From positions 1 to 36,646 of the forward strand of contig JALSHB010000223.1 of assembly GCA_026982475.1 (NCBI GenBank): 36,646 nucleotides of DNA. Reading direction: 5' to 3'. Shown here one piece after another: positions 3,771 through 6,952 of this stretch. Numbering within the stretch: the stretch's first letter is position 1; each line of letters opens with the position of its first letter. Origin of the DNA: Chromatiales bacterium. Lineage in GTDB: Bacteria; Pseudomonadota; Gammaproteobacteria; SZUA-152. The position numbers and the translations under genes were made by a program. The notes under the pieces were generated by a model. It saw only the letters and a program-made list of their open reading frames with translations. It was not told the DNA's origin and searched no databases.

Positions 3771-4121
3771 ATGAACGACAATGTCGTCACGATCAATGTG
3801 AAGATGGATGAAGAGGGCTTTTTGCTCGACCCCAACGACTGGAGCCCCTGTGTGGCGGAGGCCATCGCCGAGCGCGAGGGCATCGAGCTGACCGACCTGC
3901 ACTGGGCCCTGATCAACTATTTCCGCACCTTCTATGAGGACCACATGCGCCACCCCACCATGCACGAGTGGGTGACCACCCTGGGCCGCTTTCACGGCAA
4001 GCCCTTCCGGGAGGCCAAGGCGTATCGGGACTTTCTCTACCAGCTGTTTCCCAAGGGGCCGATCCCGACCCTGTGCAAGCTGGCCGGACTGCCCAAGCCG
4101 GTGGAAGACGTCGAGGAATGA
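3771..4121 (+). CDS. DsrC/TusE-family sulfur-relay-like protein lacking the penultimate cysteine
   Basis: This 116-residue protein is a clear DsrC/TusE/DsvC homologue: GFLLDPNDW at 16-24, the LHWALINYFRTFYEDH helix, and the C-terminal FPKGP...C...GLPKP arm. DsrC proteins carry substrate sulfur on two arm cysteines (CysB, and the penultimate CysA), while TusE keeps only CysA and delivers sulfur to tRNA thiolation. Here C102 corresponds to CysB, but the CysA position is acidic and the arm ends KPVEDVEE. The protein therefore cannot form the usual intramolecular trisulfide or act like TusE. Members without CysA have been grouped separately and suggested to be regulatory. AAGGAG lies eight bases before the ATG. 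It is the first gene of a co-directional cluster, and no dsrAB or tusBCD genes lie nearby. A redox-sensing or regulatory role is inference. Confidence 0.9.
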   Translation: MNDNVVTINVKMDEEGFLLDPNDWSPCVAEAIAEREGIELTDLHWALINYFRTFYEDHMRHPTMHEWVTTLGRFHGKPFREAKAYRDFLYQLFPKGPIPTLCKLAGLPKPVEDVEE

Positions 4122-4217: not shown

Positions 4218-4664
4218 ATGGTAATGGCCGTTTCCCAATTCGAGCGCCTGTTCCGTGAAGCCGCGTCACTGGATATCGACAAGAACGACATCAAGCGCAC
4301 CACGGATTTCATCAACCGGCGCCTGTACGACCTGCTGTTGCTGGCCCAGGCCACCGCCCGGGCCAACGGCCGCGACATCATCGAGGCCCACGACCTGCCG
4401 CTGACCAAGGGCCTGCAGGCCAGCCTGCACGCCTTCAAGGCGCTCAACGAAGAGCTGGCCCTGGCGCCCATCCTCGAACAGCTGGCCAGGCTGCCCACGC
4501 TGGACCTGGACTACAGCGAGGAACTGGCGCAGCGCCTGCCCGAACTGGCCGGCGCCATCACGGTGAGCCTGGCGCGGGTGTTCCGCGCCGTGTACCCCAA
4601 GCTGAAGAACCCCGGCAGCGCCGAGTGGCAGACCATCGACGAGATCTACGAGGTGCTGCTGTGA
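4218..4664 (+). CDS. DUF1931 family doublet histone-fold protein
   Basis: A 148-residue protein of the DUF1931 family. The family's structurally characterised member, from Aquifex, is two histone folds in one chain. The first half shows the pattern: a short helix (FERLFREAASLDI), a long helix (DIKRTTDFINRRLYDLLLLA...ARANGR) and a third helix beginning IIEAHDLPLTKG, close to the archaeal histone layout. The second half (about 80-148) repeats it more loosely. Such proteins are expected to act as a pseudodimer and may bind DNA, but DNA binding for this one is not shown by sequence. The start is well supported by AAGGAG (4205-4210) seven bases before ATG 4218; an internal ATG at 4224 is also possible. 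It lies between the DsrC-like gene and the HPF-sigma fusion and is probably co-transcribed with them. Confidence 0.85.
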   Translation: MVMAVSQFERLFREAASLDIDKNDIKRTTDFINRRLYDLLLLAQATARANGRDIIEAHDLPLTKGLQASLHAFKALNEELALAPILEQLARLPTLDLDYSEELAQRLPELAGAITVSLARVFRAVYPKLKNPGSAEWQTIDEIYEVLL

Positions 4665-4707
4665 GCACTGTGACAACCGCCGACCGAAGCAAGGGGAGAA
4701 ACCCACG

Positions 4708-5823
4708 ATGAGCAACGCCACGATGACCAGCAACGTGACTTACCGCCACCTCGACAAGGCCGAAAAGGCCAAGGCCCGCCAGGCCATCACGACCCATGTG
4801 GACAAGGACCTGGCGCCACTGCTGCAGCACTTCGACAACGAGCTGGTGCGCCTGCATGGCCTGGTGGAACGGCATACCAAGCGGCGTCTGTACCGCACCT
4901 CGCTGCGGCTCCAGCTGCCGCGCAAGGTACTGGCGGCGCAGGAGGAAGGGGAAGACATCGAGCTGGTGCTGCGCGATGCCTTCGCCGAACTGGCGCGTCA
5001 GCTGAAGAAGTACAAGAGCCGGCTCAACAACGAGCCCCTCTGGCAGCGCCCGGCGCGGCGGCGCCAGCTCCGCGAGCTTGTCAAGGGCGGAGACCGCACG
5101 GCGGAACAGCAGGCCCTGTTCCGCGACCTCATCAAATCCCACCTCAAGGGACTGTACAACTTCGTGCGCCGCGAGATCGCCTATCTCACCGCCTCCGGCG
5201 AACTCCTGCCCGGCCAGGTGACGCCGGACGATGTGGTCGACGACGTGGTGGTGCGCGCCTACGCGCAGCAGTCGCAACAGCCGGCCAGCCTGGCCCTGGA
5301 ACACTGGTTGCGCAAACTGGCCCTGGAGGTGCTGGACGAACAGGTCGCCCGCCGCCTGCCGTCGGCGTGCCTGGTGTCGCTGGAGACCCCGGTGGAGAGC
5401 GAGATCGAGGAAGACGACGAACAGCTCTACGAGTATTACCAGCCCGACGAGGCCCTGCGCCTGGAAGACCTCATCGTCTCCCCCGAGGCCAGCGCGCCGG
5501 AAAGCGCCCTGGCGCGCTATGAGCTGGCCCTGCGCAGCCAGCAGCTGCTGGCCTGGCTGCCGCGACCGTGGCGACAGGTGGTGGTGCTGGCGGACGTCGA
5601 CGGACTCAGCGATGAAGAGATCGCCGCCGTGCTGGGTATCCCCGTCGCCATGGTGGCCAGCCTGCGTCAGTTCGCCGAGGCCTACCTGCGCACCAAACTG
5701 CGCGACGGCGGCTATGCGGCACCGGAAGAGGGCGAGGCGCCCGAGGCCGGCTGGGTGCTGGACCCGCTGACCATCGACCTGCCGGGCGAGGTGGAGGAGG
5801 AGATCCTCGCCAAGTTTGCCTGA
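4708..5823 (+). CDS. fusion of HPF/RaiA ribosome-hibernation domain with sigma-70-like regions 2 and 4
   Basis: A 371-residue chimera. Residues about 8-110 resemble the hibernation promoting factor fold, which binds the 30S decoding region in stationary phase. The segment around 64-106, ending FAELARQLKKYKSRL (92-106), aligns with the HPF strand-helix end (LARQLTKHKDKL in E. coli). Residues about 132-215 look like a sigma region 2 (LYNFVRREIAYL at 149, DDVVDDVVVRAY at 174-185) with an insert. After an acidic linker (about 228-265), residues 281-332 look like ECF region 4 (WLPRPWRQVVVLADVDG, then GLSDEEIAAVLGIPV at 299-313). The recognition helix (AMVASLRQFAEAYLR) lacks the usual basic GTVKSR-type contacts, so promoter binding may be altered or lost. 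AGGGGAG precedes the ATG. The function is inferred: it could link ribosome silencing to transcription. Confidence 0.8.
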   Translation: MSNATMTSNVTYRHLDKAEKAKARQAITTHVDKDLAPLLQHFDNELVRLHGLVERHTKRRLYRTSLRLQLPRKVLAAQEEGEDIELVLRDAFAELARQLKKYKSRLNNEPLWQRPARRRQLRELVKGGDRTAEQQALFRDLIKSHLKGLYNFVRREIAYLTASGELLPGQVTPDDVVDDVVVRAYAQQSQQPASLALEHWLRKLALEVLDEQVARRLPSACLVSLETPVESEIEEDDEQLYEYYQPDEALRLEDLIVSPEASAPESALARYELALRSQQLLAWLPRPWRQVVVLADVDGLSDEEIAAVLGIPVAMVASLRQFAEAYLRTKLRDGGYAAPEEGEAPEAGWVLDPLTIDLPGEVEEEILAKFA

Positions 5824-5921: not shown

Positions 5922-6308
5922 ATGACCGGCAACAACACCCTCGGCGTGCTGCTCAACGGCATCGCCCAACTGGAATACCACCGCAACAAGCCCCTGCCGC
6001 CGCACCAGGGCGCCTATCTGGAAAAGATGGACCGCAAGATGCGCGAGGAGGGCATCGACCTGGGCGGCGAACAGATCCATGCGCCATCGCTGGAACAGTG
6101 CGCGCAGTTCGTCGCCGCCAATCTGGCCAACGCCATCACCCACGACGACGAGGCCGTGGCCGCCGCCATGTGCAGCTGGCTGGCCAACCGTCTGCCGGAA
6201 CTCCGGCAGGTGAAGATCGAGGCGCAGGGTGACGAGTGCACCATCAACCTGGTCTTCGATGAGGACTACCAGAAACAGGTCGCCATCCCCCTATCGCAGA
6301 TCCACTGA
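5922..6308 (+). CDS. conserved-looking small protein of unknown function
   Basis: A 128-residue acidic, soluble protein that I cannot assign to a named family with confidence. It has no signal peptide or membrane segment. It begins LGVLLNGIAQLEYHRNKPLP, has a central helical part (AQFVAANLANAITHDDEAVAAAMCSWLANRLP) and ends in a predicted beta pair (VKIEAQGDECTINLVFDEDY). Its two cysteines, near residues 87 and 107, form no CxxC motif. GGAGAG lies upstream of the ATG. Its stop overlaps the start of the thioredoxin-HEAT gene by one base (TGATG), so the two are very probably translationally coupled, suggesting the proteins act together. Base composition matches its neighbours. Confidence 0.8.
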   Translation: MTGNNTLGVLLNGIAQLEYHRNKPLPPHQGAYLEKMDRKMREEGIDLGGEQIHAPSLEQCAQFVAANLANAITHDDEAVAAAMCSWLANRLPELRQVKIEAQGDECTINLVFDEDYQKQVAIPLSQIH

Positions 6309-6952
6309 TGACCGAGGCCACCGACAGTCCCGAGGCCCTGCTGCTGGTGGGCAGCGGCTGCCCGCATTGCGCGGCGGTGCTGCAGGCCCTCGGCGAACTG
6401 GTCAAGGGTGGCGAGATCGCCCGCCTGGAGGTGGTGAACATCGGCCGCCGGCCAGAGGTGGCGCAACGGCTGGGGGTGCGCTCCGTGCCCTGGCTGCGCC
6501 TCGGCCCCTTCGAGTTGCAGGGCCAATACAGCCTCACGGAACTGCGCCAGTGGCTGGCCCGCGCCGGCACCCGCGAGGGCATGTCGGCCTGGTTCAGCGA
6601 ACTGCTGGCCAGTGGCCGCCTGGGTCGCGCCGAGGCCCTCCTGCGCCGTGACCCTTTGCTGTTCACGGCCCTCTTCGACCTGCTTGCCGACCCTGCCACC
6701 GAGCTGCAGGTGCGCATCGGCATCGGCGCGCTGGCGGAGGACTTCGCCGGCGATCCGGCCTTGCAGGCACAGGCGCCGCGCCTGTGCGCGCTGAGCCGTC
6801 ACGACGACCCGCGCGTGCGCCTCGATGCCTGCCATTACCTCGGCCTCAGCGGTGCCGCCGAGGCCGCCGAGTGCCTGCGTGCGCGCCTCGACGACGAGGA
6901 TGCAGAGGTGCGCGAGGAGGCCCGCGAAGCCTTGTCGGCGATCGGGGCGTAG
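6308..6952 (+). CDS. thioredoxin-fold and HEAT-repeat fusion protein
   Basis: A 214-residue cytoplasmic protein with two parts. Residues about 8-85 form a thioredoxin/glutaredoxin-like domain with a redox motif CPHC (C18, C21) and the expected cis-proline at P61 (SVPWL). Residues about 115-214 show HEAT/PBS-lyase-like repeats, for example HDDPRVRLDACHYLGLSG and DDEDAEVREEAREALSAIG, which usually serve as protein-binding scaffolds. There is no signal peptide. The gene overlaps the previous one by one base and closes the five-gene cluster. A reasonable reading is a dithiol oxidoreductase held by its HEAT part to a partner such as the DsrC-like protein or the HPF-sigma fusion, but the substrate is unknown. 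Confidence 0.85.
   Translation: MTEATDSPEALLLVGSGCPHCAAVLQALGELVKGGEIARLEVVNIGRRPEVAQRLGVRSVPWLRLGPFELQGQYSLTELRQWLARAGTREGMSAWFSELLASGRLGRAEALLRRDPLLFTALFDLLADPATELQVRIGIGALAEDFAGDPALQAQAPRLCALSRHDDPRVRLDACHYLGLSGAAEAAECLRARLDDEDAEVREEAREALSAIGA

Follow-up and report, generated by a model that had tools for sequence, protein, structure and literature searches.

The gene at positions 4708 to 5823 (plus strand) of the window, the 36,646-nt stretch of DNA from a Chromatiales bacterium analyzed here, starts with ATG and encodes a 371-aa protein that joins an HPF/RaiA-type domain to a half resembling regions 2 and 4 of ECF sigma factors. It belongs to a family with the same two-domain organization, and sequence comparisons make it almost certain that orf11 of tLST/LHR, a transmissible island for heat and chlorine resistance, is a member. 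Both halves are of known kinds, and their fusion is apparently undescribed: the open-access literature searched contained no description of an HPF-sigma fusion, in agreement with the initial annotation, which knew of no characterized protein of this kind.

The reading frame, homologous along its whole length to proteins from plasmids and other genomes, is preceded by a good ribosome-binding site, a Shine-Dalgarno-like GGGGAGA at 4693 to 4699 (plus strand), with the ATG 8 bases further on. The N-terminal half matches the Ribosomal_S30AE domain (Pfam ID PF02482) at residues 22 to 107 (4771 to 5028, plus strand) with 34.3 bits for the full protein and 38.5 bits for this half alone, the Pfam cut-off being 23.7. 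It also matches TIGR00741 (yfiA) at residues 25 to 108 with an E value of 6e-7, which is under the cut-off set for that model in NCBIfam. In profile-profile comparisons with a set of HPF proteins (hhalign), probabilities were 97 to 98 and scores 62 to 75, and 20 column-shuffled controls scored no more than 12.5, which excludes a chance match. The domain includes the LARQL-KKYK helix (residues 95 to 103). The initial assignment of HPF/RaiA to residues of about 8 to 110 is borne out. The host genome encodes two ordinary S30AE proteins besides the fusion.

When compared by profile with 58 ECF sigma factors, the C-terminal half aligns over the sigma2 and the sigma4 domain alike (hhalign probability 99.2, E value 2.9e-19). 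The region 2-like domain, with its DDVVDD helix, covers residues 135 to 217 (5110 to 5358, plus strand), and the region 4-like domain covers residues 278 to 331 (5539 to 5700, plus strand). Sigma70_r4_2 (PF08281) matches residues 278 to 323 with 32.7 bits against a Pfam cut-off of 25.7, and the sigma70-ECF model TIGR02937 matches residues 137 to 331 with 42.6 bits, 0.3 under its NCBIfam cut-off of 42.9. The Pfam model of region 2 (PF04542) matches 11 places in the host genome, and the fusion is absent among them. The sigma-type helices earlier proposed for residues of about 132 to 332 were thus recovered by profile searches, which matched S30AE and sigma-70 region 4 but not the Pfam region 2 model. 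An AlphaFold2 (AF2) model of this half (pLDDT of about 70 to 88) has the SigW structure 5wuq as its best match in the PDB (Foldseek probability 1.00, TM score 0.69 by target length). Structure prediction thus agrees with the expected fold in the sigma-like half, whereas for the HPF half two AF2 runs from 3 sequences gave only low-confidence models (pLDDT of about 50) with helix-strand-strand-helix in part, and a fold search with such a model returned no E value below 0.18. A single-sequence search of the PDB matched the sigma-like half to ECF sigma factors and, less strongly, the HPF half to HPF structures.

The fusion is genuine and ancient. It is found in a sister genome at 89% identity with the gene order unchanged, and the same fusion occurs in hundreds of independent records, which excludes an assembly artifact or a chimera. 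A plasmid search with the window protein returned 298 records, 269 of them with a single match that spans 80% or more of the query; in all, full-length homologues are present on about 270 plasmids, whose hosts are alpha-, beta-, and gammaproteobacteria, and in at least 16 other genomes. The profile search of gammaproteobacteria gave long matches (E < 1e-50) in 15 of 369 genomes, the window's own counted, and a phylum sample yielded further members. A scan of genome contigs produced a match in the sister genome only. In public annotation, most members are hypothetical proteins and some are sigma-70 family sigma factors.

An alignment of 31 extracted full-length proteins shows one layout in all of them: HPF, an arginine-rich linker, a sigma2-like domain, an acidic linker, and a sigma4-like domain. 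Residues R114, D178 (in the DDVVDD helix), Q245, D247, R289, and A323 are invariant. The first linker, WxRxxRRxxLR at residues 111 to 125 (5038 to 5082, plus strand), has a mean net charge of +6, with R117 and R118 found in 30 of the 31 proteins. The sigma2-sigma4 linker at residues 226 to 268 (5383 to 5511, plus strand) has a mean net charge of about -14. The N-terminal half and the linker that follows it are thus basic, and the linker between the sigma-like domains is acidic. The latter contains the most conserved block of the family, E-[FY]-x-Q-P-D-x-x-L-x-x-E-D, represented in the window protein by EYYQPDEALRLED at residues 242 to 254. Sigma-like relatives without an HPF domain, found in G476, Azospirillum, and Phenylobacterium, also have an EWYQPDE-type linker, so that this linker may be independent of ribosome docking.

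The stand-alone genes of Azospirillum and Phenylobacterium lie in similar stress islands. In both, an annotated DUF5335 gene (L130, 6585 to 6965, and L131, 6594 to 6965) directly precedes and overlaps the sigma-like gene, and the host, too, has a DUF5335-like gene close to its other HPF protein, at the HPF-cold-shock locus (L133). DUF5335 is a possible further link of hibernation factors with the sigma-like family; the idea that it is the split HPF partner of the stand-alone proteins was set aside after reading the DUF5335 sequence by eye. On the Phenylobacterium zucineum plasmid, a stop interrupts the linker motif of the stand-alone gene (L131, 6962 to 7606), which is annotated as a shorter hypothetical protein.

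At the tLST loci of E. coli, Klebsiella, and Pseudomonas fragi, a "hypothetical protein" matches the family; its gene is flanked by hdeD-GI (or its DUF308 equivalent) and by trx-GI. In the loci that we read, this gene directly follows hdeD-GI in all cases and precedes trx-GI in all but one. In the published tLST1 gene order, the protein in that place is orf11 (PMC8290217), which the original LHR paper leaves unnamed in its main text and which is otherwise described as hypothetical or as less than 30% identical to known proteins (PMC8290217, PMC5383660). It shares 28 to 29% identity with the family along its length and, in a maximum-likelihood tree, falls inside the family, near the members from G032, G294, G322, and G710. 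By itself, orf11 has no Pfam match to S30AE and a profile-profile probability of only 0.4. Its N-terminal half, however, matches that of the rest of the family with a probability of 98.9, and the rest of the family, with the window protein and tLST sequences left out, matches HPF with a probability of 98.1. The HPF homology of orf11 thus emerges only through a two-step chain, and so it was overlooked before; because its HPF half has diverged below Pfam detection, the protein appears as "unknown" in reviews of the tLST/LHR/TLPQC island. Among 5,426 complete E. coli genomes, 152 (about 3%) have the gene, which is nearly whole in 144 of them; it also occurs on many Klebsiella plasmids. The assignment gives a testable identity to an unexplained gene of the island that confers heat and chlorine survival on E. 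coli, Klebsiella, and Cronobacter. The window itself lacks the tLST/LHR gene set sHSP20-clpK-...-hdeD-orf11-trx-kefB; it contains a different gene cluster, with only the gene family in common.

In this family, neither of the two surfaces with which a sigma factor contacts promoter DNA remains positively charged. In comparisons of representatives less than 50% identical to each other, which are descriptive only because their p-values ignore the ancestry shared within each set, the recognition helix has a mean net charge of -1.31 in the family (n = 16) and +3.96 in ordinary ECF sigma factors (n = 28), and the helix of regions 2.3 and 2.4 has -0.62 versus +3.57 (16 and 28 representatives, respectively). 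The region 2.2-type helix is acidic in both sets (-2.25 in the family and -1.29 in the ECF proteins). The SRxxRAR signature of most ECF sigma factors is missing in every aligned family member (the recognition helix of the window protein is at residues 311 to 331). As positive charge is gone from both surfaces, the sigma-like half probably no longer recognizes promoters and is not a promoter-reading sigma factor. The initial proposal that the fusion releases a sigma factor when ribosomes are inactive is therefore poorly supported.

Most members of the family are encoded among genes of protein quality control. They adjoin genes for Hsp20, FtsH, a ClpK-like ATPase, DnaJ, HtpX, DnaK, or GroES-GroEL, and such chaperone or protease genes lie beside the fusion gene in most of the plasmid loci that we read. 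Core chaperone and AAA-protease genes (Hsp20/ClpK/FtsH/DnaJ/DnaK/GroEL class) occurred in the vicinity of 9 of the 17 chromosomal loci of the family and of 0 of 20 control regions, and the density of quality-control genes was 2.65 versus 0.07 per 10 kb, in a test that drew part of its reference proteins from a test locus (L031) and its controls from only six of the genomes, and in which several test contigs were short. In G032 (L031, 7201 to 8226) and G294 (L108, 6382 to 7458), genes for DnaJ and for an HtpX-like protease of the M48 type come after the fusion gene, and Hsp20 or YfdX genes flank its other side; these chromosomal clusters resemble tLST, with a different gene order.

The subclade of the window protein (window, G102, G259, and G088) is the exception, being without chaperone neighbors. 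In the window, the fusion gene is preceded by co-directional genes for a TusE/DsrC-like protein (3771 to 4121, plus strand; PF04358, TIGR03342) and a DUF1931 protein (4218 to 4664, plus strand; PF09123, 171.8 bits), the latter 43 bases upstream. It is followed by a gene for a 128-aa protein (5922 to 6308, plus strand), which has no Pfam or NCBIfam match above cut-off, and a gene for a protein with a thioredoxin fold and HEAT repeats (6308 to 6952, plus strand; PF13192, PF13646). The TusE/DsrC-like, DUF1931, and 128-aa protein genes keep this order in the sister genome. In G102 (L116), a homologue of the thioredoxin-HEAT protein (51%) is encoded directly after the fusion; it is the only one of these neighbors to recur next to the gene there. 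DUF1931 was seen beside the fusion in the window and its sister genome and not at the other family loci.

We propose that the protein may be a stress-survival factor made alongside chaperones. Its HPF domain and basic linker would dock in the decoding region of idle 30S or 70S ribosomes. The sigma-like half, with promoter reading lost, would keep its protein-binding face, formed by the region 2.2-type acidic helix and the acidic EF[YW]QPDE-L-LED linker, and could hold core RNA polymerase in an unproductive state (or, alternatively, bind an anti-sigma factor). Under heat or oxidative shock, the translation and transcription machines would be parked together and later released. In sigma factors, the region 2.2-type helix contacts the polymerase clamp, and in ECF sigma factors, the sigma2-sigma4 linker passes through the polymerase cleft, so that the conserved acidic linker of the family could block this cleft. 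Binding of RNA polymerase by the sigma-like half is a tentative prediction. The complete scheme of dual hibernation by a single protein, with HPF on idle ribosomes, the sigma-like half on core polymerase, the acidic linker filling the cleft, and orf11 working likewise, is more doubtful. The proposed role comes close to the possible tethering of polymerase to idle ribosomes that the initial annotation had offered as its other option. In E. coli, polymerase hibernation by Rsd and ribosome hibernation by RMF/HPF are co-regulated (PMC6904343), which makes their physical linkage in one protein plausible; transcription and translation are silenced together there by separate proteins, whereas the fusion would possibly do so as one. 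The fusion is a candidate for the physical coupling, within one protein, of ribosome hibernation to RNA polymerase silencing, and whether the two shut-downs are directly linked or only co-regulated could be addressed with this protein in purified form.

Among known systems, HPF/RaiA factors (long HPF and the HPF-cold-shock type among them) share with the fusion the N-terminal S30AE domain with its RQLxxxK helix, but they continue into a dimerization or cold-shock-like C-terminal domain where the fusion has an ECF-sigma-like fold and the extra arginine-rich linker. The group 4 (ECF) sigma factors SigW, SigE, and CnrH have the same sigma2/sigma4 order and fold; unlike them, the fusion has an HPF domain, has lost the DNA-contact charges, and has the long acidic EF[YW]QPDE linker.

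The main alternatives to dual hibernation are an exapted sigma fold and a PhyR-like mimic, with a genuine sigma factor less likely. In the first of these, the sigma fold would have been recruited for a partner outside transcription, such as a chaperone of the island (ClpK, Hsp20, or Trx), or would join ribosomes in place of the C-terminal domain of HPF. The strong linkage to genes for disaggregases, chaperones, and proteases is consistent with such a role, as are the 11-base overlap of the orf11 3' end with the start of trx-GI and the presence of the HPF-less relatives in the same kind of island. However, unless there is a sigma-type partner, it is difficult to account for a region 2.2-type acidic helix and an interdomain linker that are nearly invariant, and we regard this reading as rather unlikely.

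A PhyR-like mimic is also unlikely; here, the sigma-like half would set a true stress sigma factor free by binding an anti-sigma factor, and the HPF domain, instead of a receiver, would signal the state of the ribosome. PhyR, which combines a signaling domain with a sigma-like domain, is itself no promoter-reading sigma factor, and it provides a precedent for a receiver and a sigma-like domain acting on an anti-sigma factor. The loss of DNA contacts fits this reading, and the top fold matches of the sigma-like half include the ECF/anti-sigma complexes SigW-RsiW, CnrH-CnrY, and RpoE-NepR. The best score of any member against the PhyR sigma-like domain, 25.6 bits for a Burkholderia protein, is under the cut-off of 27, and the window protein scores 13.4 bits. 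A Pfam search found no receiver domain in the fusion, which has HPF in that place, and no NepR-type partner was seen. Further, no Pfam-recognizable anti-sigma gene adjoins the fusion in the window and none is annotated in the plasmid loci read, and PhyR/NepR has been described from alphaproteobacteria, whereas the fusion family spans three classes.

Quite unlikely is a genuine promoter-reading ECF sigma factor that the HPF domain restrains on ribosomes or releases when they are idle, as the initial annotation had it. The sigma2 and sigma4 folds are complete, the window copy, one of the least degenerate, exceeds the Sigma70_r4_2 cut-off, and some members carry a sigma-70 annotation. Yet the basic residues of both DNA-contacting helices are lost family-wide, region 2 of the window protein goes undetected by PF04542, and tLST orf11 and the G032 member score below the sigma cut-offs.

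Two published observations weigh against all functional readings: orf11 is disrupted by insertions in the LHR2 variant (PMC5383660), and its deletion in MG1655 lacZ::LHR did not belong to the 7 of 13 deletions that lowered heat or chlorine resistance, nor did the orf11 deletion alter lipid oxidation (PMC8407380). Kill assays, however, would not necessarily reveal the phenotype of a dormancy or recovery protein. A decaying, nonfunctional cargo gene, to which the same two observations point, is very improbable given that 269 plasmid records and 144 E. coli genomes contain the gene nearly whole, that the frames stay intact across deep divergence with invariant residues, and that one "hypothetical" LHR protein, by elimination perhaps Orf11, is expressed in E. 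coli (PMC7010813).

A phage origin found no support, with 0 matches in 50,697 phage records; neither tLST orf11 nor the gammaproteobacterial alignment gave a match when used to scan viral sequences. One IMG/VR record classed as viral, 3300045950_000267 (L128/L129), contains a family member by genes for FtsH, a ClpK-like protein, and Hsp20, with phage-type genes downstream. In the window, positions 6 to 2015 are occupied by a CRISPR array that reaches its left end and in which the 36-bp repeat GTTCTCCGCAGCAAATTGCTGCGGCCTCATTGAAGC occurs 28 times at a spacing of about 73 bases.
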